NCBI GenBank assembly: GCA_027600665.1 | Contig: JADGJL010000156.1 | Coordinates: 1 to 36,598, forward strand | Source: Irineochytrium annulatum | Taxonomy: Eukaryota > Chytridiomycota > Chytridiomycetes > Chytridiales > Chytridiaceae | Reading direction: 5' to 3' | Length of the DNA stretch: 36,598 nucleotides | Part shown: piece by piece, positions 1,149 to 32,709 of the stretch | How the letters are laid out: every line of letters begins with the position of its first letter | Position numbering within the stretch: the first letter of the stretch is position 1 | The notes under the pieces: model-generated | The model's input: the letters and a program-made list of their open reading frames with translations, nothing else | What the model was told of the DNA's origin: nothing | Databases searched by the model: none | Program-made: the position numbers and the translations under genes

Positions 1149-1741
1149 TGAGCGCCGTAGAGGCAGTGCAAAGTAGTCTGAATTCGGTGTCACCGCGCCC
1201 AAACCACCCGCCAGCCAGACGCCACTTTCAGACACCTGTTAGAGAGTCAGAAGGTTAGGCGGCCAACCAGCAGCAGCCAATGAAAAGACGGAGAACCAAA
1301 TCCTGGACCGCAACCATCCGACTCATCCAGGCCTCGCCCTCTTATACGACGACGAGAAACCGGTCTTATCGCCCGGATGTTCGCATCTGTAACTGTTCGC
1401 AGGGGCGTGGTTGGGAATTGCGTTCACATCCCGGGTTCCGGGGTGCGCCGCTCTTTGCGTGTTGATTCCGCACCTTCATGATGCCGTCGTGCCCATGCCC
1501 CGCCCTCCGTAAGGGGGCGTGACAGGGGCTTGAACATCGGCGCATCGGTAGAGGCAAGCAATTGAACATACAAGAGCTGAGGCGATGGCAGGCATGGGGG
1601 ATGTGTGGGAGAACGCGGCGGCGCATCTTCCGGGTTGAACGTAGAACCCAACCACTACCTTTTTTTATTTTTTTTATATTTTTCCTATATAAATGGAATT
1701 TATTGCCATGAAGATCACAAGTATTTGATAACAGGGCACAT
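1149..1741. other. Intergenic, 5' of unknown gene and 3' of BTB gene
   Basis: No convincing coding exon is seen. A T-rich tract with an embedded tatataaat sequence (about 1660-1695) probably belongs to the 3' untranslated region of the minus-strand BTB gene. The part next to 1148 may hold an untranslated or short coding 5' exon of the unknown gene. Several overlapping open frames here look like chance products of GC-rich sequence. Confidence 0.5.
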
Positions 1742-10112: not shown

Positions 10113-13100
10113 TTACTTCAGTGACTGCGGACCCCGCATGTTTCTTCCGACCGTCCCCGATCCTTCGTTTTCCTCCTGTATTGGCTCATGGACGGATTCT
10201 CTCGGCCCCACCCCACTGTTTCCCCGATAAATTGAGGACCCATGCACCGACGCGGAATCCCGATTTGATGTCGGGGTCGACCTGCTTCGCCGCCTAGAGT
10301 TGTGCGACGACCTCCCATCCTCTATGTCGGACCCGTTATCCGGCATCAGGTTGACGTTTGATCTCGTGTTGTGAATACCCGGGGCAATTACGTCCGCCAT
10401 GCCGCCCTCGTGAGAGAAGCAAAATCCGAGGTTCGGGAGCTCCTCGTGCGTGCCCATGAACACGAGCGACATCTTTGTCGCGTTCCGGGAATCCGTCGAC
10501 ACCTTCCCCAATCGGGACGACGACGCCGCGCCAAGAGTCTTCGAACCGGTTTTGCCCGCCTTCCCTGGCCCTGCGAAGCCCTTTATCTGCTCCGAGTTGA
10601 ACATCTGCCGCGCCTTCAGCAGGGCCGGATTCGAGGCCGCGGCGGACGAGTGCGTCTTACGGTGGCCCAGTGCGGGAAGGTTAATCGAGAGCGACGTCTT
10701 GAGCGACCCGGCGTTTAGGTGCGCACCGAGGTCGATGGACGCCCCGCGGGCCGTTATCCGATGCCGGAGCTTCATCTCGTCGCCAACCGTGCTCTTCCGC
10801 GCCGTCGCCGAGCCTGGTGCATCCGCGCGGGCCTCAGGCGCCATATCTGGCCGCGGCGGCAGCGTCGCCGAGATACGCGTATCGACTGCTGGCGGAACGA
10901 AGCCATCCGGGTTGTCGACCGCGCTGTTGCTAAGCATCACGGGAGCATGATCGGCGCCGACGTTGAGGCCCTCCTCCGTGGACGTGGCCTGCGCGATCGT
11001 CGAGTTGCTTTGATCGACCACGTTTCCGTCCGCCAGTTCGCCCGCGTTTGCTGGTGAAATCTGGTCGTCCGCGTCCGGCTGAGGCGACTTGAGGTCCGTC
11101 GGGTTCGCCATCGAGTGCTCCGAATTGGACCGCTTCATGCGGGATGCCGTCGATGTCCGCCGCGCCGCATCCAGGTTAACAGCATAGTCGGAGTGGATCC
11201 GCTTCATTGTTGTAGGTGCGTCGTCTTCCTCGATGCCGCTGTGCTCCGACACCGCTCCGTAATCTCCCAATGTCGTCGATGTCGCCGTGTGCGCGCCACC
11301 CTCAATGTCCGTGTCGACCACATCGCCCTCCTTCCATTCGTACTTCTGATACTCGGAAATGATATCAGTGTCGTTCGGCTTAAAGTACTGCTGAATAAAT
11401 TTGAACACGAGGCGTGGCATCAACGCGAGGGCAACTGAAACAAAAATCGTGATGAAGAAATGCGGTTGCATGAACAGGACCGTTGTTTCGCCGTAGGTTG
11501 GGTTAAGGATGGCAGCCGAGTAAATGACGAAATAGAGAACCCAGATTATGAGGCTGCAGGCGATGCCGAGGAAGGTCATCCAAGGCCAATAAGACGTATT
11601 CATCCCGTTGTACAGATTGACTGTTATAATGATTGAAAATGCAATAGTGGTGCCCTGCGAGTCCTTGTCTGTCTGATTCCCCTCGTAGTCGGCAGCGCCG
11701 CCGCTCACGGTCAGGAAGGAGAAGTAGTATATCACCAGGGATTGGTAAATTGCATCGAGGGCAAAGACCCAGAACCGCTCCATCGTGAACAGGGACTGCT
11801 TAATGCCCTTCATGTAGAGCTGAGGTACTTGTAAACCGAGAATGTCATTCACGTCTTGATCAAAAATGCCTTGGACCATCGTGGGGAGAACAGTAAAAAA
11901 AGTGTTGAAAAACATTCCATATGTGAAGTCCGTTATAATAGCGGCCGAAAAGCTATAAAAGCCGTTAGCATCTACACTCTCAGGCATCAACAATAAATGT
12001 GCTTTACCCGCAGTCAAACTGGTACCAAAACAGTACGAAAAGCCAAAGAATATTCTTATGAAAATATCCGAGAATGAGTTGAGCCGTCCGTACATAACCC
12101 CATCGGCCGTGGACGAGTAGTAACTTCCCCAAAAATCTAAACTGTGCAATCGCGTAGTCGCTAGCCATGACTGCCTGCAAGCCCTCCTTTCCAATAATTC
12201 CAATTCCGACGTCTGCTTCCTGAATCATACTCACGTCGTTTGCACCATCGCCAATAGCAAGGCACATCGCGCCCTAGTGACACATTAGATCACAATGATT
12301 GGGCGATCGTGAGAACTCACCAGCCCCTTGCGCACTAACGATACGACCTTAGCCTTCTGAAGAGGGCTGACTCTGCAGCAAACTACGGCCCTGCACCTGC
12401 ATCCCAGCTCCAGCAGCAATGGCCTGCATTGCGGCTGCAGCGCGAATTTCAAGCTCTCACCATCGATGACCAGTGCGTGCTCCCGCCTCTGCTTCAGCAT
12501 CCCGTCCGGGGTCCAGAACCTTTCGAGCGCCTCGACGATTTGCTGGATGGTCGCCTCCAGACAACCCGACCGGATGATGATCAGCAGCATGTCCTTCTTC
12601 AATAGATTGGACGCAAATCCGATGTTGATGGCCGTCTCCATCTTATCGCCCGTCAAAACCCATATCTTGATGCCCGCTTTCGCGAGCGTACCGATCGTCT
12701 CCGGGACGCCCTCCTGCAGCTTATCCTCGATGGCCGTCGCGCCCATCAGGACGAGGTCCCGCTCAATCAGCTCAGCCACCGCGTCAATCTTCCGGTCCCG
12801 GTCCTTGATGGAATTTTGCGCCGTCTGGTACTTCGCGTTCCAAGCTTCGTACTGGTCCTCCGGGATGACTTTGTACGCCAAACATAGTGTCCGGAGGCCG
12901 TCGTTGGCAAAGAGCTCGAGGTGCTTCGACGTTGTGTCCTCGAACTCCTGCTCCCGCTCCCCGACGTCTTGATGCCCTTTCTCTTTTGTGATCTTCAAAC
13001 GCTCGAAGATGACGCTGTCGGCCCCCTTCACAAGGAGGACGACCTGCCCTTCCGGTCGCCTCACAATGACGGACATGCGCTTGCGGTCCGAGTTGAACTC

Positions 13101-15320
13101 AATCACGTTGAGAAGCGTGTAGGAGCGCTCCTCACCCAAAAGGTCGACATCGAGCACGTTCTCACGGCGACGAAGGAACGTAAACCCGACGTCTCTTGCG
13201 GCCGCGACCAGCGCCGCCTCGTCGGGTGACTGCGCCTTATAGTCAATGCAGTCCGGCCGCTTCTCCTTCGGCTTCTTCTCCGCGAGGACGGTGTGGCAGA
13301 TCGCGAGCAGGGTGAAGAACTCGCGGATCTTGCGACCCTGCTCGCCGTCCTCCTTAATGTCGAGGTGCAGCTGCGAGTCAATGAAGGAGAGCTTGTCGCT
13401 CACGTAGCGGGCGTCGAAGAGCTCCCTCATATTCTGTCGCATCTGATCCTCGGCGTTCTGAGATGTTGGCGCGTCCATCTTCTTCCCTTCCCGTGCTGCG
13501 GCGCCTAAATTCGCCTCTGTGACGAAGTTTCCTCCATATAGCACGCCATTGATCGAACATTTCCGGAATTCCATCATGTTACATGTCAGCGTTCCGGTCT
13601 TATCAGAAAAAATGTACTCAATTTGGCCTGTCGTTTCGACGTCAACACACCGTACACCTTAAAAACAAATATTGAAACCCACCAAGATCGTCGCACAGAT
13701 TCCATGCTTGCGGCGACACGTGCTTATCCATCTCAGCGTCATACATGTCCGCGTCCAAGCTGATCATGAAGGACTGCACCGTCTTCGATATATCGACACT
13801 GATGTAAAGGGCAATAGGGATAATGTTCTGGAAGATAATCATGCAGGAGAAGAAAGTGACGAATGCCGCATAACTCGGCGAGTAAAAGTCCGACGGCGTG
13901 TTTCCCAACCCGATAAACGGTGCCTTTTCCCCGATGAATTTCCCCGCATACACGGACGTAATCAGCGAGCAGATGACGCACATTCCCGTCAGCAGCAGAA
14001 AGTTGAGCATCACGAGTGGGTTCAGCTGCCGGTCGATCCTGCTCCGCTTACTTGGCGTGATGCCTGAATTCAACATGATCTTCGTCTCCGACCCCGTGAA
14101 GAGGACCACACCGATGAGCCACTTCGTGTTCCGGAGTACGCATCCGCGGAGGAGCACGCCGTTGATGCTAAGCGGAACCTTTCGCCCGTCGTCGAACGTG
14201 TCGTCCTCCTGGTCATGGACCGTCAGGAGGCCGTTGTAGTTGTAGAGATTAGCGTTCGGGGGCTCCGAGTCAAAGTGGCAGCGGAGGCGCACGCAGTCCT
14301 CCGGGCTGCGGACGTTCGACAGGTCCGTGATGCCCCTGCGGATCTTCAGGTTCGTCTCCCCGTCCAGATTCTTCGTCTCAACGTAGCAGGCGCAGTCCTG
14401 CTCGCTCGTTGAAATGATGGCGATGTCCGCTGGGATTGGGTCGTTATTCCGCAGGTATACGAAATCTCCGACTGAGCGCAAAACGTCAGTCACGTCCTTT
14501 GGCCGCGCGCCAATGCAAATGCCGTTTACCTCGCACATCCTCCCACTTGCTCAACTTCCACGCCGGTGGTTTCGCCTTAGACTGGCGGACCGACAACCGT
14601 GGCTGCTTCGCCTCCTGCTTCCCATCATTATTTAATGTGTCATTCGATGCCGGCACGTCCGGGTTCGCGCCGATATATTCCGGGTAGTCCGCATTCGCCC
14701 CACTGCCACCCGCAGCCCCTGTCCCCAAACTGATGACGCTGGACTGAGGGTGGTTGACGTTCCTCCAGGACTGCAAGAGATATGTCTTCGCCTTATTGAC
14801 ACTTTCATCGGACTTATGCCGCTTCCAGTCTTCGAATGCGTCCTGTGAAAGTGTTAGCAACACAGACGGGATGCATTTGGGCGGTATGGCCTTCTCGTAC
14901 GGACCTTGATAGCGGTCACTCCGATGATTAGAATGACCGGCGCGGCCGTCAAAGCCGTTGACACTTCCGCAAATGGTGGGAAAGCCTGGAGAACAACGAG
15001 GCTGGTGAAGTAGAAGTTGGCGACACTCCTGAACTGCTCGAACAGATCTGCATGCCTAGTCAACACTCTGCCGCTCATTCAACAAGCAAGTGGTCCATAC
15101 TCTTCGGGAGGAAGGTCAGGATCGTGTATTTCGACGTCCTGATCATGTTGGTGGGGAACGACGGGGGAAGCGGCGACGGCGGGGTGTTGATGTCTGCGTA
15201 GCCGCCAAAGTTGACCATGATCCGGCGCTTCTCCTCCTCCGTCGTGTCGGGCTCCGTCTCCTCGACATCCTGGATGAGATCAAGGTTTGACCGGGATCCG
15301 AGCCAGTTCACGGACGTCAT
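10113..15320 (-). CDS. P4-type ATPase, Dnf-like phospholipid flippase
   Basis: Seven exons (minus), 15320-15101, 15047-14905, 14842-14530, 14471-13683, 13627-12321, 12273-12008 and 11952-10113, encode 1625 aa. All phases are consistent. P4 landmarks appear in order: [21 protein letters not shown], a first membrane pair, the actuator [23 protein letters not shown], the phosphorylation site Asp497 in [18 protein letters not shown], and GDGANDVSM (from Gly932). A C-terminal membrane block follows. Such enzymes move phospholipids to the cytosolic leaflet at plasma or endosomal membranes with a CDC50-type partner. After the last membrane segment the protein has a long Ser/Arg-rich disordered tail. 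Near residue 1530 this tail carries GFCFS, resembling the autoinhibitory (G/A)(Y/F)AFS motif of flippases. Resemblance to yeast Dnf1/Dnf2 is strongest around the DKTGT region. Confidence 0.93.
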
Positions 15321-16677: not shown

Positions 16678-20910
<4,233 letters not shown>

Positions 20911-21839: not shown

Positions 21840-23899
21840 TCACAAGTACAAAAGGTGATTCGCGAGCCGTCCCTGCACTCTCTTCTGATGCCAAACCGCC
21901 ACCTGGCGGAAGAGCAGCGACCTGAGACCCAACTGTCTTTGCGGCGCGACCTCGCTCTCCCCCTCCACTTCTTCCCTCCCCTCCACATCCTGCATTTCCG
22001 TTGAGTCACAATACTCGCCAACTCGCTCCCGCTCGACGGGCCAGCTCCGGGCCGGCCCCCAGCTCTCCCCTTCCTCAAGCTCCTTAAATGAAACGCCCAA
22101 GATGGATTCATCGTTCTGCAAAAGCGCAGCGGAGCCGTCGGGAGAAATTGGGCCGATTTGGTCCAAAGATAGGTAACATGGTACAGACCAGGACTTCTCT
22201 CCGATCAAAAGGTCAAAGCAGACCAGATGACCTTGATGGCTTCTCATGTAGGAGTCGTCAACAATGTAGTCGCAGCCCTTGCAACAAAGCAGCGCTATCC
22301 GGCCGCGTACAGAGAAGTCAAGAACATAGCTTCCGCTGCGAAGTATGAGTAAGCCGGCGCCCCCGCTCCACACACTTGGGAGTGGTAACTTACGCGTCTT
22401 TGTACTCCGAGACCTCAACTACGCTGATATCGTTGCTGGTCAATTTGCTCATATCGGAATTCTCTCCATCCAGGCCATAATCTCGGTAGTCCTCCCAAAC
22501 CGCCGTGAACTGGAACAGCATCGCCGTCAGGTCGTGACCCCGCACAAACTTGACGGAATCGGCCGCTCGGTCAATGCAGTACACCATCATGACGTTCGCT
22601 AACCTCCCCTTCCTCACCCCGTCAAGGATCGGTTGGGACCACTTCGACCCGTCATCGGCCTTGTCGAAAGCGTGATCGATTTCGAATTCGTAAGAAAGTG
22701 TCGCCAACAGGATCAACATGTCACCGTCCGCCCTCACAGCCCACACGGTCGTCTCCCACACGGTGCTCCTTTCCGGCAACACCGCCGCCTCAGCCGCGTC
22801 CGCCGTGACGTCCATGTCGTACTTCCTCGCCCGGTCCCGCAAACCCCAGACAACCCTGACGAGCGGCGGGACAGGCTTGAAGGAGTCCTCGACGGTCCCC
22901 GTCGCGAGCACCATCACGTCACCACGGAAGACGAGTGGCTCGACCTTTTCCCCGGTAGCAGACTGCCAGACGACCTCGCCGACCCCGCCGCCCGCCTCCA
23001 CCTTCGCCACGCACAACCTCTCACCACCCGCGCGGCCGAGAAAGAGGTCGAACGTGTCGTTGTAGCCGAGCGCGCGGATGCGACGCCATCCACCGTGCGT
23101 GGGATCCGTCCGGCCCGTGATACTGGTGAGGCGGCTGTCGATCATGTTCCTGGGGAACGTCCGGAGTAACGCCGAGCTTTCGAGCGCCTTCACCAGCTTG
23201 TCCCCCGGCTCGCGGCAGATGGCGTACGCGTCCCATTGCTCTGGCGCCACGAGACTCGAGAGCGGGAGGTTCTGATCCTTCTCTAAGTCGGCGAGCTCGT
23301 CCCTGTCGATGAAATGGTCAAGGTTGACCGGATCGTAGGGCGAATCCGGGGTTGATGGCGCGTTTGGGTCGTCAGGGTAATACTCGTACGCTAGCAGTGC
23401 TGCTCCTCGGAGGTTGGGAATTGAATGTTTGAAATCATCGTCGGCGGCATTGTAGGACGAATCGTGGGCGCTTGTTGACGGAAACGGGAGGAAAAGGCTG
23501 TACCGACCATTAAGCATCTGGAGAGATTTGATTAACACTCAAAGTTTGCAAAAAAACGAAGGAATCAACTCGCGATCCTACGTTATGATGAGCAATGTAG
23601 ACATCCTGCCACCTCGGGCAGCTCATCGTCGTCGCCGGCTCGAAGCGGATACCCGGAAATGCGAAGTCTGCAACGACCTTCCGCTTCCAAAAGATCTCGT
23701 TGTCCATGAGCAACGACCTCGCGCGCCGACAGGTGCCCAAAAACCGCGCCGTCGTCCTGGCGTCCGCGATCACGAAGATCATCTCCAGAATGTCGGCCGG
23801 GAGGTCGAGCAGCCGGATCGCGCCGTTCCCGTCCGGCTCGATCTTGTCGGCCACCCCACCACTGGACTCGGGCACCGTCCGCATCTTCTTTTTCGGCAT
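21840..23899 (-). CDS. F-box protein (paralogue 2)
   Basis: Three exons (minus), 23899-23582, 23517-22394 and 22335-21840, give 645 aa with intron phases 0 and 2, the same as in the gene at 5707-7821. The F-box is at about residues 29-73 (LLDLPADILEMIFVI ... CRRARSLLM ... FWKRKVV), then CPRWQDVYIAHHN. Matching blocks follow: VAPEQWDAY, GYNDTFDLFLGRAGG, VFRGDVMVLATG, VKFVRGHDLTAML, GRIALLCCKGC, GHLVCFDLLIG. Both end in LxNHLLYL. The protein is a probable SCF substrate receptor with a beta-propeller-like C-terminal half; the substrate is unknown. The start is the ATG just before a KKK segment. The reading frame stays open upstream, so a longer N-terminus is not excluded. The gene is oriented head to head with the RdRP-helicase gene. 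Confidence 0.85.
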
Positions 23900-24395
23900 G
23901 GCGATCGAGCGGTCCGAACGGCGACGATCGAAATGGGGGAACAGGACACAGGACGGACCCTTCGGCTGCGATGCCGCGGCACTGCAATGCCTGGAATGAT
24001 ATCCAGTGGCTTGGCAGAATGAGGTTCCGTGCGATCTTACGCCCAAGAAGGGTCGCCATGGGCTTGGCGATATGGAGCCGGTGCCTTACATATACTGGAC
24101 CATGGCCTGCGGCAGCTCGAAGAATGGGACCGTCTTGTAGAGATTGGCACGCGGGACTCCGCACGGCGGTAGCCAGCCCTGATGAAGCATTCCGAGTCCC
24201 TCAAGGAATGATCGGAGGGGCGGCTTCGAGGCCGAACGATCGCGTCGTGAAAGCCGAGCTGCAGTTCCTGGACGCCTTCACACTCGTGCTAGGATGGTTC
24301 TATGCGCTTTCCTTAGCCGCTAAGTCGTGCCACTGTCATGGGCTCGTGTTCAGCTGTAAAAAGACTCCCACACCCCAGATCACTTTACGCCGAAC
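23900..24395. other. Bidirectional promoter region, F-box gene 2 and RdRP-helicase
   Basis: A 496-base gap lies between two divergent start codons. No open frame in it has recognisable content. It should carry both promoters. A catatac sequence near 24090 is the only TATA-like element I noticed on the F-box side. Confidence 0.45.
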
Positions 24396-27300
24396 ATGAC
24401 GACGCCCGTCGCTGCCGCGGCGCCCGATCCGCGTCCGAGGTCTCCGCACCCCGATGGATCCGTCGTCACCGGCTGGGACGCCTCGGGGAGCACCGCGTTG
24501 CCGCCTGCGAATCAATCGGTCCACACTGGCGTCGTCGGTGCCCAGTTCTCACCCGCGACCGCGGCCTTGAACGGCACTAGCGCCCGGATCCAAGACACCG
24601 CCGGACCGGGAGGAGCCAAGCGGCGTGTGATCAACCTGGACGCCTACATCGCGAACATCTCCCCCAAACGCTCGAACAGAACGTCCACCGCGGGCCCGGT
24701 TACCGTTCAGTTTCCGGCGAACTCGAGATGGAACGGGACGAACCATGCCGTGCGGTCGCAGGGGAACGGGAACAACGCGGGCAGGAGGAACGGCGGACAG
24801 CCGAAGCCACGACCTCCCCCGCAGCCCTCCCATGCGATCGTGTATAATGCCGTGAAGGGCGAGGCGGATTATAAGAGTAAGAGGCTGGAGCCGGCGCCAA
24901 GAAACACGTTGGCGAGTAGGATGCTGCCGTCGGGACTGCTGTTCTTGTTCGTTGATTATGAAGGGGTATGCTTCGAGATCTTTTGGGCGGGACTGACACA
25001 GGTGTAGGACCCAAACAACCTCGATCAGCTCAAAGCCTACGCGAGCTTCCTTCACACCGGCGGTTCACAGAAGCTGAGCCGGTGGAGTCTCCTGACGTAC
25101 TCGACCGGACACCTCGCTACGCGGAGATGCGTGTTCGCCCCTAGGAAGCTGTGCGATTCGCTAAGGGTGATGCTGGGCTTACCAAGTTTTCAACCGGCAA
25201 GCGCGAGCTACGGGAAGAGGGTGCCCGACCCGGGGAAGAAGATGCCCTTGGCAAAGTTCGCGTCGCTTTTCTAGGCATGGAGGCTAATGGGTTTCCAAGA
25301 TACATCAAGTATTCCGGCCTGCTCTTCAACGAGATCCAAGGCCCGATTCTCATGCTGAAGAACGTGACGATGGTAATGGGGGAGGACGTCGAGCGGCACG
25401 GGTTCACCTTCACGGACGGGTGCGGCCGCATATCAACGGATCTGATCGAGGAGCTCGTGCCCGGTCACCGTCGGTCCCGGAAGGACTTAATTCCTACGGC
25501 AATACAGATGAGGGCGCCGGGAATAAAGGGCATGCTGGTGGCCGATCCCTTGCTGGAGAGGCGGACGGTGGTGCTGATGCCGTCGATGCGGAAGCTGAGG
25601 GTCAAGGAGGTGCCTGTGGGGATTGTAAAGGATGGGAGGGTGGACGACAATGCGGTCATAAGCGCGGTTGACGGTGGCCAATTACGAGATCTGATCGACT
25701 GCGACTCGTAGGCGCTTGTGCATTCCTTTCGCCATTAATTGTCTACGCCTGCTAGGATCCCAGTCGGCATCCTGGCCTTCTCCAAGCCCCAAACGTCCGG
25801 CATCCTCAACTCCCAAATCATCACCCTCCTCCTCGAGCGCGGCGTATCCTCTACCCTCCTCCTCAACATGGATACCCAGTACAAGCAGTCCATGCGCTTC
25901 ATGATCACGGATGTAATGGCCGCCCTTGACTTCCTCCACCTCCGCGGCATGCGCGCCCAGTTCCTCACCGTCCTGTCCGCCCTCCGTGCGCCCGAGGGCT
26001 CCGCAACGCGGGAGTTGAAGTTGCGGACCGTGTGGAGGCAGCTGAGGGACTTGCAGGCAAACGAGGTGGCGAATTGGAGGAAGAGGGAGGCTGCGTTCAA
26101 TTTTAGCGGGTGGGGGAAGTTCAAGGCGGAGGAGGTGAAGGATGAGGATGTGAGCGCGAATGATCCGATGAGGAGGGTGTACCTCCCTTGCGTGAAGTCG
26201 AGGAGGCTTTATGGCGTTGCAGATCACTGGGAGTCCTTGGGACCCGGCGAGTGTTTTGTGCGGATAACTAACGCGGATGGGGAACCGGTGGTCATCGAGG
26301 GAGACGTGCTTGTCGTGCGGAACCCATGCTACCACGCGGGGGACATCATCAGATTAAAGGCCGTGAGGGGGGACGAGCAGGTCGCGCATTGTTTGGATGT
26401 GATTGTGTTCTCGTGCCAAGGAGAGAGACCGGACCCGGACAAGTCGTCGGGAGGGGACCTGGACGGGGACTCGTTTATCGCCATTTGGGATGAGAGGCTG
26501 CTTGAGGCGGTGGTTGATATGAAGCCTTTCAATTACCGGCCCGATGCCATGAAGGACCTTGTGAAGACGACTTCGCTACGGTTGGGAGAGTTAAAGGGTC
26601 TCAGGCCCAAGAAGGCGGCGAATCTCAACAAGACGTCTTTGATCGACAAGCTGACCTCCCTTGACACTCGCGACAAAATTGCCGGCAAGATCGACGGCCT
26701 CTTCAACGCGTGCCGCAAGTCCGACCCTCCCACACCCGACGACGCTGCGCGGCCGATTTTGACGCGCCAGGAGCTTATCGCGTACCTAAACGCCCTCTTC
26801 TCCATCGGCATCGACGACGTCGACCTCGACATGGAGCAGCTCCTGAAGGGAGTCGAGCGGGAGGTGAAGCAGCACATGAGCTCGGCGCTATCGACCCTGA
26901 GCCGGTTCTTGGAGAGCTGCATCCAGGCGTCGGACTCGACGTCGGACCTGATCAAGCGGCAGACGGCGCCCGATTCGCTCGAGGTCATGTTCGGGTTCTT
27001 CGTGCTGTCGGTCGATGAGGACCAGAGCTGGCAGCAGCCGGGGTTCGAGGACGAATACGTTGTTCCCGAGCGTAGGGAGACGGTCGACCTTACACTGAAA
27101 ATCTTAAAGATGGGCGAGAAGCTTATCATGGATGAGCCCGCAGTCACCTCGCTGCTCGATGTGACGCAAATGGAGGTTCTGAGGAAGTTCTTCAAGATGG
27201 AGGTCGTGAACAACTGCGCTAAAGTGATTAGGAGGAGGGAAGAGGAGATTGAGATTGCACGGAGGGCGTGCTTGGACGTGCCGGTCCGAGGGTTGATTGA

Positions 27301-30300
27301 GATGTACAGTGAGGCGAAGAGGAAGGTCGCAAAAATGCAGGAGGAGTATGGTACGCCAGTTTGATCACTCGATGACGATTTGACGTTAGGCTTTAGATCG
27401 CAACGGGGAATTGAATCTGCTGCATGAGCTGGAAGAAGAGAAAATGAAGTTGGATGCCTTGCATAAGGAGATGTATATCGACCCGAAGCAGCTGACGGAA
27501 TACAACGACAAAAAGGTGATCACAGCGGTTTACCTAATCACGCGTAACATCTCTATAGAAAGTATGGAAGGAATTGGATGGGCGACACTTGTCGATTGAG
27601 AAAGTGGTGAAGCACGTCGTTAACGCTTTGAGCGGCAAAGTGAAAGATATCGGTGGGCTAGACAATGTGGTGGAATCTAACGTTTTTACAAGATAGCAAG
27701 TTGATTCTCGATGTCGAAACGATTTTCATGCAGGAAATTAATATGTTTGGGAGGTGCGAATGATGGCATTTGAAGACGTTATGCTGTGCCCTGACTATAT
27801 TTCTTCAGCGAGCTTCCGATCTACAACTCCCGAGCAGCGCTGGTCGACTTCTGCACGGCCGGAAATACCAGATGCATGCTTATTCTTGCGGAGACAGGCT
27901 CAGGGAAATCCACTTGCTGCCCGCATTTTGTAGCAAACGAGCTGTTCTTCCAAGGTTCCCTTGCTGATTCATTTTCAATCGCAAACACATCTTGCAGGCC
28001 TTCTTTCCTCTCAGAAGCCAATCATCGTCGCCCAGCCGCGCCGCCAAGCGACAACATCCCTCGCCGCTAAACTTGCTGAGACGCGCTCCTCAAACCTGGG
28101 CGACGCCGTCGGCTCTCACATTGGCAAGTCTAAAGCCGTCACGAACAAGTTTCGGACAGTGATCAATTGCACGACATACGGCATCCTCCTGTCGTATGCG
28201 TCAAGGGACCCGGCCTTCCTCAACTATTCGGTTATTATCCTCGACGAGGTGCACGAAGATTCGCCCGATTTGTACTTTCTGTTCTCAATCATCAAAATGG
28301 CCATGAGGAGGAACTCGGAGCTAAGGATGATCCTTATGTCGGCTAAAGTTAACGCCGAGAAGCTGCAAGAATTCTTTGGGGAGTGCGACGTGCTGACGGT
28401 GTGTTTGTGGACTTCTTTACTGAGGCTAAATCACGTTTCAAAGGTTAAGGGGCGTGCATACCCCATTCAAGAACACTTCTTGAACAACTTCAGCAACCAG
28501 CCAGACAAATACATTCAAAATGCGCTTGACGCCGTCGCGGACATCCACGCCAGCACCCCTGTTGAGGGGAATTGCGACATCCTCGGTTCGTGGCCTTTTT
28601 TCTTTCTTGGAATGTTGATCGAGTTGGAAATTTTTTAGTCTTTCTTCCGAAAGTCGCCGATATTGATATAGCGGCCGCAAAATGCCGTGAAGCGGTCAGG
28701 GATAAGCTGGGAGATGAGGCGGCAACTCTTTACGCGTACCCATTATACTCGTCGCTAGACCAGAAATCGAAAGATTTCATATTAAAGAGGTAGGACTCCA
28801 GCTACCCTTTCTGATTCGCTAAGCGCAGTTGGGAAGGTTACCTGTGGATCAATGGCCCGATGATGCTAACGATGGGGACGCCGATAGCGACGATGGCGGA
28901 AACGACGATGATGAAACTCTGGAGCTTAGCCTCGAAAAGCTGGACGTGAACGGCGATGCTGGCGATGCCGATGAAACAGTTAAGATGGACGACGCAGAGG
29001 TTTATGCGAACGAGTTGATGGATGCGACGACGAAGAAGAATGAGGTCAAGGTGCTCACGCAAATGCTCAGCAAGCTTGCGTCGGAGGCGAAGGGCGTTAA
29101 AGAACAGGATAGTGTCGAAGATCGAGGGGCGGAGGATGAGAAGACCGCTGACTTAGTAAAGGCGGAGCCAGGTAATGTTGACGACAAGGTAGCTGGTGAA
29201 GAGGAAGAGGACAGTAGCTCCGAGACAAGCGATCATGCTAACTCGGACGCATCGAGAGTCGAAGGCTATGAAGGTTTGTCGCTCCTCGTTATCGCTACGT
29301 TCTGGCCTAAAGTAATTTTCTCCGCCACAGAAGGGCCCCAGGATAGCCCGGAGTCGGGGAAGGTGGAACTTGTATCAAAAAATGAGATTGCAACAGAGCA
29401 GCCCGCCGACGCGGAATCCGAAACCGCCGCTAATATCACGACGGAGAGTGACAACACAGCAGCGGAGAACGCTGATACCGCGGACACAGACGTCAAGAAG
29501 CCCCTCAGTAAGCGTCAAAGAAAGCTATTGCGCCTCGAGGAGAAAGCGAAGCGTCGTATAGAGCGCGTCGAGCGACGCAGGGCCGAGAAGGAGGCCGCGA
29601 AGGTGGACACAACGCGCCGTGTCATCTTCTGCACGAACGTGGCCGAGACGTCCCTCACATTTCCCCGCATCGGCTACGTGGTCGACTCCGGTCTCCAGTT
29701 TCGTGTACGCCAACAGGCCCAGCTAGGGATCAGGAAAGTCGGGCTCGAGTCGACTTCCGCTGTGTCGGCACTACAACGCAAGGGCCGTGCGGGACGCCTC
29801 GGGCCGGGGGTGTGCTATCGCCTGTTCTCGGCGGAGGATCTTGAGGACTTTGAGGAGCAAACCTTTTCGGACTCGGACCGCCTTGACATGACGATCCTTC
29901 AGATTATCGAAATGCACGACATCCGATCTTTCGAGTGGTTTCACCCTCCTTCTGCCTCGGACCTCGAGTGGACCCTCGAGGTCCTCGTCGGATGCGGCTT
30001 TGCGGACCACGACCACTACGCAAATGTCTACCATATTACGCGGGACGGGGATTTGGCTGTCCAGATGGGGAGGATCGGTTTGCCCGCGCAGGCCATCCAC
30101 TTCCTCCTGGCCTCGCACCGCGCGACGGATGACGAGCTGCTCCGCGCGCAGTGCGTCGTCGTCGCCGCGCTCAACGCGAACGGGCTCAGGGGCCAGCTAG
30201 TGACTCGGAACTTCTCGTACAGGCATGCGGAAAGCATGGCCGGGTCCGACTACGTCGATGAGGACTACTTGATCGCGTGCCCGGAGACTATGGAGACGAT

Positions 30301-31378
30301 ACCCGCGACGGCGAAGCTCGTAAATCTGTACTGGACGTTCGCGTCGCTTCCGAGCAAGTCGGCAAGGAAGAAGTGGTGTGAGGGCGCGAAAGTGCATTAC
30401 CGTCGAATGAAAGACGTAGCGACGGCCGTGAAGGAGATTGCGGATTTCATTAAAAGGCGGGACAGGGACTTTGCCTTTAATGGCGGGGAGTGGTATTTTG
30501 ACGAAGAGACGTGGGTCAAGTTCGATGGAGGGGTTCCGCTGTCGGAGGAGAGGGAGCTGGAGCTGTCGGCGGCGGAAATGGCGACTCTAGCGGAGTATAG
30601 TGAGTTGATGAGGCAGGCGGATGAGGATGCGGCGAAGAGGGATAACGAGGTGGAGGAGGACGAGGATGCGAACGACGTTGGGCTTGAGGAGACGGTGGTG
30701 GCCGGCGAGGTCATTCGCTCCGTGACGGACGGTGATCAGCTTGTCGTTGACGGCGTGGCGACTCCTAGTACCGCCGGCGTCCCCGCGGTTGACGGCAAAG
30801 ATTTCGCCGCGCGCATTGATGACGCGCCGCCCTCGACACCCAACTCGGTCCCGTCTAGCCTGACTCCCGGCCAAGTGCCCGCCATCCTTCAGCGCTCCGC
30901 CACCGCAGAGGACTCCAACGCCACCCTTGCGCGCGAGATCGCCTCCGGTTTCACCTCCACCACCCGCTCGACCGCGAAACCTTACCGCGACGTCCTCGCG
31001 GAATCTCTCCGCACGATCGCCTTCATCTCCGAGCACCTCGCTATCTCCTTCCATACCAACGTCGGCCTCGCCGACGGCTCCTCCCTCGCCTACGGCGGCT
31101 CATTAGGACCCGACGCGGGGACGCTCGTCCCGGAAAGCGAGATGCCTTTCGGCGTCACAGGCGCTTGCGTGGCCAATGTCGATAGGAACGAGGAGAAGAA
31201 CTTTGACGGGGTTGGGAGGGGTCTGTGCATGTTTATGTGCGCGACAGAGTTTAGGGAGACGGTTTATGCGAGTCAGCTGGATTGCTTACCGTATGGCATA
31301 GTGGAGGTGTTGCCGGAAAGTAGGAGGAACTTTTTACAGGCTTTGTTGCATAGCAGGGGTTTAGACGATATGTATTAG
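24396..31378 (+). CDS. RNA-dependent RNA polymerase fused to a DEAH/RHA-type helicase
   Basis: Thirteen exons encode 2107 aa: 24396-24965, 25008-25185, 25275-25707, 25756-27350, 27397-27515, 27559-27652, 27693-27753, 27809-27954, 27998-28398, 28444-28585, 28639-28789, 28888-29273, 29331-31378. Residues 1-180 are disordered. The RdRP domain (to about 900) shows LLTYSTGHLATRRCVFAP, FTDGCGRIS (from 295), FSKPQTSGILNSQ and the catalytic DLDGD (Asp628/630/632), as in QDE-1/RDR enzymes. A predicted coiled coil then leads to a DEAH helicase: motif I ETGSGKST (1045-1052), motif II DEVH (1148-1151), motif III SAK, motif V TNVAETS (from 1527), motif VI QRKGRAGR (1574-1581), and ratchet and OB-like ends. 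About 210 acidic/charged residues interrupt the second RecA domain. Likely role: making dsRNA for silencing, with a built-in remodelling motor. Every junction keeps frame, so one polypeptide is the simplest reading. Confidence 0.87.
28790..28887 (+). other. Intron with two competing acceptors in the helicase part
   Basis: The donor is AG|GTAGGA. The nearest acceptor (cgcag ending 28828) would shift the frame and reach a stop soon after. The acceptor ending 28887 (gatag) keeps the frame and has a TGCTAAC branch-point sequence about 15 bases upstream. I used the second. Use of the first would truncate the helicase within its second RecA domain. Confidence 0.6.
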
Positions 31379-31826: not shown

Positions 31827-32709
31827 TAAGCCTTCTGCTCCAAGACCTTGTAGGCAATGAAGGCGATAGCACCGACAACGGGAATGAGACCGAACAGGAT
31901 GCTAGTTTGAGCAAGAAAGGTTAGTTCAGTAGATCGCGAAGGAGGCCTTCCCATCGTCATCCGATCATTCCCCACACACACTAACACTTTTCACATCCCG
32001 GACTATAATTACTTCACCCTAATAAGAAATACTCACGAAGTAACGTTCGTCTGGGACGCCTTCCTGCCCTCGGAAGAAGTGCTCGTAGCGGGCGCGACCT
32101 TGTTCGCAGCCTTCGGGGGCGGCTTGCTCTTGTCGCTCAAGTCCGCGACAAAAAAGGTCTTAAGGAGATCTCTCGCGTCGTCAGAGTGGCCGATCTCCTC
32201 GAAGGCCTCCGTCGCGTCCGTGCCTTCAAAAGCCAAAGAAACAAAACAAGATTGTTAAAAGATTGACACTGAAATCATGGGCGAGCGCAAAAGTGAAGTG
32301 CAAAAAACGTAACGCACCGGCCTGCTCGAGCAAGACCTCCTCACCACCCGGGTGCTCGTCGAGGAAGCGGGTGATGTCGTAGACCTTGCCCTCGATCACC
32401 ATCCCTGTCGTAAGAATGCAGATTGGTAAGCGAACGAAATAAAAGCGATAATCAAGCAGCAAGCAAGACACAAGAACTCACAGCAATCGTCCCGGGTGTT
32501 GTGGGAGGCAACATCCGTCCTGTGAACGACGATCAAAGTCAGATCTTGGATCGCGCCATGACGGAACCCGAGCTTCCCGCAGCAACACCGTCCACCCACG
32601 AGCGCGGTGCAAACCCGCCCAGCAACCTCCGGTTCCAAAATCGCCAGCTCTCCCTCCTCGATCATCACATCCGCGTCGTAACGCACCAGGAAACAACGGT
32701 CGAGGTCAT
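31827..32709 (-). CDS. Cytochrome b5, tail-anchored (ER electron carrier)
   Basis: Five exons (minus), 32709-32687, 32519-32482, 32404-32318, 32223-32037 and 31902-31827, give 136 aa, the usual length. The heme-binding fold shows [27 protein letters not shown] and [16 protein letters not shown]. The axial heme ligands are His38 and His62, 24 residues apart as in animal cytochrome b5. A Lys/Pro/Ser linker leads to a single C-terminal membrane helix ([19 protein letters not shown]) and a short KA end, a tail-anchored layout for the ER or outer mitochondrial membrane. It passes electrons to desaturases, hydroxylases and P450s. The first exon (MTSTVVSW) is the least certain; it is chosen because it restores the VxSWxxVAxHNT pattern in phase. 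Confidence 0.9.

Follow-up and report, generated by a model that had tools for sequence, protein, structure and literature searches.

Silencing RNA-dependent RNA polymerases (RdRPs) often need helicases, which most descriptions treat as proteins in their own right. Does the chytrid fungus Irineochytrium annulatum encode both in a single gene? The question is raised by a locus on the forward strand (24396–31378) of a 36,598-nucleotide stretch of its DNA (the window). This stretch is contig C166, and the genome comprises 26.9 Mb in 1082 contigs (Chytridiales per NCBI). In Schizosaccharomyces pombe, Rdp1 works with the separate helicase Hrr1, whereas the chytrid helicase would lie in the same protein as the polymerase. 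RrpA-type RdRPs of Dictyostelium carry an N-terminal Dicer-like helicase, and the window protein does not share this arrangement, its helicase being C-terminal. The original prediction, made from the window, proposed a silencing-type RdRP followed by a full DEAH/RHA helicase in one frame, and called this a different architecture.

One spliced frame joins an RdRP to a DEAH/RHA helicase

The 13 exons splice, as proposed, into a single frame of 2124 codons that has only its terminal stop, with GT...AG ends at each of the 12 introns. The protein has a computed mass of 234.8 kDa. Pfam matched, from N to C terminus, RdRP (PF05183; E 4.9e-61, 207.6 bits against a cut-off of 23.8), DEAD (E 9.3e-8) and Helicase_C (E 1.8e-6). 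The spliced frame reproduces the phases claimed for the linker introns (1, 0, 1, 2), and leaving the first of them (27351–27396) unspliced does lead to an early stop, at 27362–27364. Two details needed correction. Four small exons had been counted within 27397–27753, but three lie there and the fourth is 27809–27954; and although helicase motifs I, II, V and VI are in frame as described, motif III is present only as SAK, not SAT.

The deposited protein HK101_002707 of I. annulatum (P0001; 2208 residues) comes from the same gene and shares 845 identical residues with the 13-exon model, from SKPQTSG through the linker to CDILV. It starts upstream, and the start codon at 24396 is uncertain, as is the exon 2/3 border, at which P0001 takes a later exon 2 donor. 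P0001 also skips the FLPK stretch that is present in relatives and keeps the 57-base intron 29274–29330 as coding. The features of the gene are as follows.

24396–31378 (+): whole fused gene, 13 exons, 2124 codons; stop-free spliced frame, deposited P0001
24396–24965 (+): exon 1, low-complexity N terminus and beginning of the RdRP region; spliced frame, start codon uncertain
25008–25185 (+): exon 2, N-terminal RdRP part; spliced frame, 3' border uncertain (P0001 donor later)
25275–25707 (+): exon 3, RdRP with FTDGCGRIS (25409–25435), a motif largely kept in relatives; 5' border uncertain
25756–27350 (+): exon 4, RdRP catalytic part with GGDLDGD (26450–26470) and start of the linker; Pfam RdRP
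27397–27515 (+): exon 5, linker; 92-residue linker similar to relatives
27559–27652 (+): exon 6, linker; spliced frame, linker similarity
27693–27753 (+): exon 7, linker; spliced frame, linker similarity
27809–27954 (+): exon 8, helicase entry LPIYNSR (27813–27833) and motif I TGSGKST (27894–27914); spliced frame, conserved motifs
27998–28398 (+): exon 9, RecA1 with motif II DEVHE (28243–28257) and motif III MSAK (28336–28347); conserved motifs
28444–28585 (+): exon 10, start of RecA2; spliced frame
28639–28789 (+): exon 11, RecA2 (FLPKVADIDIA...); DILVFLP common to relatives
28837–29273 (+): exon 12, first part of the acidic insert within RecA2; family-wide insert of 55–357 residues
29331–31378 (+): exon 13, end of the insert, motif V FCTNVAETSLT (29627–29659) and motif VI QRKGRAGR (29774–29797)
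within 29331–31378 (+): remainder of exon 13, putative HA2-like and OB-like C terminus, and stop; Prp43 profile match, modelled fold of a relative

The same fusion recurs across chytrid genera

Protein searches found RdRP, DEAD and Helicase_C together in at least 18 proteins from at least 11 chytrid species and at least 8 genera. Each protein search scored about 8000 candidates and listed at most the best 120; the whole-protein search yielded 14 proteins with RdRP and DEAD/Helicase_C, and two further searches added two each. Pfam matched all three domains in every one of the 18 (RdRP at E ≤ 0.01). Halves encoded always at unlinked loci in relatives had been named as evidence against a fusion; in each of the 18 members found, a single gene model contains the two halves. 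Phlyctochytrium bullatum has four fusion genes, Chytriomyces hyalinus three, Irineochytrium and Blyttiomyces sp. two each, and P. planicorne, C. cf. hyalinus, Siphonaria sp., Rhizoclosmatium, Entophlyctis sp., E. luteolus and Physocladia one each. NCBI taxonomy look-ups, which covered neither Chytriomyces nor Rhizoclosmatium, assigned four taxa to Chytridiales and Blyttiomyces to Chytridiomycetes incertae sedis, with Siphonaria ambiguous. Two of the P. bullatum proteins (P0003 and P0008; HDU96_008980 and HDU96_008981) have consecutive locus numbers and contigs of equal length, and are probably a tandem pair.

The spacing of the two halves is similar throughout, with 347–427 residues between DLDGD and LPIY in the 16 members that have an intact DLDGD. 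Compared with the corresponding place in 15 relatives (the 17 less P0005 and P0014), the 92-residue linker encoded by the small exons of the window gene outscored every one of 500 shuffles for ten of them (z 4.5–15). Each half forms one clade with support of 100/100 (15 RdRP rows, from a tree without P0014, P0008 and P0013; 17 helicase rows, from a tree without P0014), and the small subclades of the helicase tree match those of the RdRP tree. The second fusion of I. annulatum (P0009; contig C284, about 24597–18269), which has a shorter insert than the window gene, has its linker within one long stop-free stretch. A stop-free stretch at 22361–21030 contains LFSAGID, a C-terminal motif of the RdRP, and overlaps, in a different frame, the one in which the helicase starts (21286–20294); the halves could therefore be joined by a short intron.

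Several observations weigh against a single gene. Linker similarity was marginal in P0012, P0122 and P0011 (6, 14 and 19 of 500 shuffles scored as high) and not significant in P0228 and P0013 (77 and 100); the positions of P0001 and P0009 differ between the RdRP and helicase trees, although no strongly supported branch is involved; and deposited models in this set do merge neighbouring genes (P0121 with a 5'-nucleotidase, P0013 with an extra helicase), these extras being N-terminal and found in one instance each. A prediction error that joined two adjacent genes is nevertheless very unlikely, and we rejected it, because the same fusion, alike in order and linker length, occurs in 8 genera, the linkers are similar, both halves form single clades with shared subclades, and the C284 paralogue needs only that short intron. 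The window locus thus appears to be a genuine single RdRP–DEAH gene, as its frame, its Pfam matches and its family indicate.

A DEAH/RHA helicase in a position known for superfamily 1

We found no description of an RdRP–DEAH fusion in the titles, abstracts and opened passages of the open-licence PubMed Central (PMC) literature, PMC4290597 and PMC12663654 included, in line with the original prediction, which knew of none; nor does the word 'helicase' occur in the main text of PMC6396948. RdRPs with a C-terminal helicase are already known. Fgrdrp5 of Fusarium graminearum has, according to its authors, a C-terminal helicase and AAA domains, its deletion phenotype has been published, and it is reported to contribute to the biogenesis and accumulation of exonic small interfering RNA (siRNA) (PMC11237814). 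The claim of a different architecture therefore holds only for the type of helicase: what is new is a DEAH/RHA enzyme in the C-terminal position of an RdRP. RdRPs have been described as seemingly missing from Chytridiomycota (PMC5796279), and I. annulatum and its relatives are counter-examples.

Fgrdrp5 (FGSG_09076; P0140) represents RdRPs fused to a superfamily 1 (SF1) UPF1-like helicase (PF13086/PF13087). These resemble the chytrid proteins in having the RdRP near the N terminus and the helicase at the C terminus, and they group with the chytrid RdRPs against canonical ones. They differ in the helicase, which is of SF1 rather than the DEAH/RHA superfamily 2, and in a middle region of about 700 residues, which is shorter in the chytrid family. 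Canonical RdRPs (plant RDR2, oomycete P0128 and the I. annulatum protein on C579) have the PF05183 core with DLDGD in common with the chytrid family. Unlike the chytrid fusion, P0128 has about 430 residues ahead of its RdRP domain and no helicase.

The RdRP half is related to the SF1-fused class

When the RdRP half of P0007 was the query, the matches next in rank to the family members were five SF1-fused RdRPs (149 to 111 bits), followed by two that have no helicase (78 and 62 bits). By their names, the SF1-fused RdRPs among the best 120 of 439 matches in a profile search, whose profile itself included five SF1-fused rows, belong to ascomycetes, basidiomycetes, Glomeromycotina (arbuscular mycorrhizal), animals and volvocine algae. 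The RdRP came first and the SF1 helicase last in all eight SF1-fused proteins scanned. In a 55-row tree, for which the SF1-fused rows were 29 listed proteins with the algal ones excluded, DEAH-fused and SF1-fused RdRPs, together with five unfused relatives, were separated from six canonical rows with support of 100/99, or 100/100 when two long rows were removed. Within this sampling there is good support for a relationship between the chytrid RdRP and the SF1-fused class. An origin from the canonical RdRPs of the I. annulatum genome, modelled by grouping the DEAH clade with those on C579 and C963 and with P0128, costs 56 log units and was rejected by the approximately unbiased (AU) test (p 2.9e-6).

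In the best tree the DEAH clade was nested among SF1 lineages (94/86, 91/86), and the helicase occupies the same end of the protein in both groups. The best reading, although not proven, is that a DEAH helicase most likely replaced an SF1 UPF1-like helicase in the chytrid lineage. Some of the evidence pulls the other way: the branch of the DEAH clade is long (1.48); an arrangement in which the SF1 rows and unfused relatives form a clade of their own costs 7.1 log units and was not rejected (AU p 0.105); the tree without the two long rows does not resolve the place of the DEAH clade among SF1 lineages; and unfused RdRPs are thinly sampled, with six canonical rows. The long branch and the tolerated SF1-only clade also fit an independent gain of the DEAH helicase, in a line of RdRPs with no SF1 helicase in its past. 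With the nesting and the shared protein end set against it, we consider this a serious possibility but the less probable one.

Pfam listed ten families with E ≤ 10 in the window protein, and neither PF13086 nor PF13087 was among them. As a candidate for an RdRP–SF1 fusion elsewhere in the I. annulatum genome, we considered ten PF13087 matches (best candidates scored); all lie off the five RdRP contigs.

The helicase tree shows that the fused helicases cluster, and does not name the donor family. Its comparison set (n = 17) was a convenience sample of 16 of the 106 proteins P0015–P0120 and one frame from the I. annulatum genome, with partial helicase frames of that genome excluded, and it carries a long-branch warning for P0105.

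Two side observations concern the SF1-fused proteins. Several of them (P0125, P0183, P0189, P0198 and others) also contain a PF13521 P-loop (AAA_28) domain, which in P0125 is N-terminal, ahead of the RdRP. One SF1-fused RdRP named as from the fungus gnat Bradysia odoriphaga (P0192) lies within fungal rows, and contamination or transfer is possible.

The fused helicase keeps its ATPase motifs and has lost the motif III threonine

GGDLDGD is present in 16 of the 18 members, that is, in all 16 that cover it, the gene models of P0013 and P0014 skipping it; FTDGCG varies slightly (FTNGCG in P0013). GSGKS and DEVHE occur in all 18, as does motif V with minor variation, and motif VI is complete in 16 and cut in P0004 and P0006. 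By contrast, motif III reads SAK in ten members, SAS in four, SAQ in two, SAA in one and SAT only in Rhizoclosmatium P0012, whereas SAT was found in 17/17 comparison DEAH helicases; the threonine is thus gone in 17 of the 18 fused enzymes. Every member has an insert of 55–357 residues before motif V, and in most members it is acidic. The fused helicases share motifs I, Ia, II, V and VI with Prp43/DHX15 and other DEAH/RHA enzymes, and differ from them in the RdRP fusion, the insert, the non-SAT motif III and the lack of any Pfam match in the fused helicase to the helicase-associated (HA2; winged helix and ratchet) and OB domains.

These two domains bear on whether the helicase is 'full', as had been claimed. 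Against this, no HA2 or OB was among the Pfam matches of the window protein; a genome-wide HA2_C search matched ten places, none of them on C166 or C284; and the lone HA2/OB Pfam match in the family (P0013) sits in the extra N-terminal helicase of that model. On the other side, the best solved relative of the family profile was Prp43 (E 4.6e-97; chain residues 89–358 and 369–639), and because the alignment reaches residue 639 the profile extends into the helicase-associated region. An AlphaFold2 model of the relative P0014 (mean predicted local distance difference test (pLDDT) 69.8, predicted template-modelling score (pTM) 0.55) had pLDDT mostly >75 from residue 541, and low values at the insert and at a damaged motif I region. 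Foldseek matched this model to whole DEAH helicases over about 700 columns, with a Prp43 chain as the best match (E 3.7e-32) and a target template-modelling score of up to 0.80, to Prp2/Prp22; the fold that it has in common with DEAH/RHA helicases includes their helicase-associated parts. In the P0014 gene model itself DLDGD is missing and motif I is damaged, and no RdRP was among the 50 fold matches listed; these points count against the single-protein reading proposed below. One alignment of window exon 13 with full-length relatives, in which the acidic insert fell opposite motif I, was set aside. Together the Prp43 profile and the P0014 fold point to a putative HA2 region in the fused helicases; they support it for the family and not directly for the window protein.

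A proposed polymerase with its own motor for RNA silencing

RdRP-family matches in the I. annulatum genome lie on C166, C284 (the second fusion), C579, C963 and, weakly, C1, and the C579 and C963 RdRPs group with the canonical rows. The RdRP-like locus at C963:6601–8869 has several in-frame stops in its best match and is either intron-rich or decayed. Piwi-domain matches lie on five contigs, and C123 and C328 have RNase III matches in pairs. With RdRP, Piwi-domain and RNase III matches in the same genome, a silencing pathway is plausible in this species.

We consider it somewhat probable that a single protein combines an RdRP that makes complementary RNA for silencing with a DEAH ATPase that assists on the same RNA; we propose the silencing role because the RdRP is related to the siRNA-linked Fgrdrp5. 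The N-terminal RdRP would turn target RNA into double-stranded or short antisense RNA, while a mostly helical linker would hold the C-terminal DEAH ATPase to it, and this ATPase would feed, clear or release the RNA of the polymerase. DEAH helicases translocate 3'→5', UPF1-type helicases 5'→3', and a polymerase reads its template 3'→5'. As the DEAH polarity is the direction of template reading, the template strand would be a natural track for the motor, which would move with the polymerase; an SF1 motor would move along the product. C-terminal helicases are frequent in the class to which this RdRP belongs, and in chytrids the DEAH/RHA helicase would have taken over the position of the UPF1-like one, most likely by replacement. 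The silencing role, motor action in cis, polarity and order of events are what we infer. The DEAH half is a candidate ATPase or translocase that RNA would drive and that would serve the polymerase in cis.

Template unwinding in cis is less certain, because motif III is substituted, and this substitution argues against classical unwinding. The missing threonine points to an ATPase that translocates or remodels and is no strong unwinder of duplexes. Taken to its limit, the C-terminal half would separate no strands at all and be an ATP-driven translocase, clamp or ribonucleoprotein remodeller that strips proteins or holds RNA. In Prp22, SAT changes reportedly uncouple ATP hydrolysis from unwinding, and the fused family has lost the threonine in all but one member while keeping motifs I, II, V and, where covered, VI with minor variation, against the uniform SAT of the 17 other DEAH helicases compared. 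Rhizoclosmatium P0012, however, retains SAT, and K, S, Q or A at this position may still allow unwinding in the fused context; we regard the absence of any strand separation as possible but rather unlikely.

A role in RNA quality control in the manner of Prp43/DHX15, on lariats or pre-rRNA, instead of small-RNA silencing, is improbable: Prp43 is the closest solved helicase both by sequence profile and by Foldseek E-value, but the RdRP catalytic motifs are conserved in the family, matches of Argonaute and RNase III type are present in the genome, its fused paralogue reaches 217 bits where the closest ordinary DEAH gene reaches 111, the fused helicases form a separate clade, and the related Fgrdrp5 affects siRNA (PMC11237814).

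Beyond the silencing role, we tentatively suggest, as a conjecture that may well prove wrong, that one class of RdRP is a platform with a helicase in cis, for which chytrids exchanged the motor for one of another superfamily and opposite polarity, pulling the template in the direction of the polymerase, with motif III altered to favour translocation over unwinding. If this is true, RNA silencing has two naturally occurring machines whose chief difference is the motor. Comparison of DEAH-fused with SF1-fused proteins could reveal features of the pairing that do not depend on the type of motor. The RdRP and helicase are kept in one frame across 8 chytrid genera, and the altered motif III offers a sharp biochemical prediction.

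Other features of the window

The remaining features lie on either side of the fused gene.

1372–1657 (+): signal recognition particle RNA (RF00017, 116.6 bits, full model)
10116–14550 (−): frames of a phospholipid-translocating P-type ATPase (PF16212, PF13246)
19901–20758 (+): C-terminal part of a USP7-like ubiquitin protease (PF14533)
23510–24085 (−): weak F-box-like match upstream of the fused gene, just under the Pfam cut-off
32226–32477 (−): candidate cytochrome b5 frame, recognized by eye from an HPGG motif

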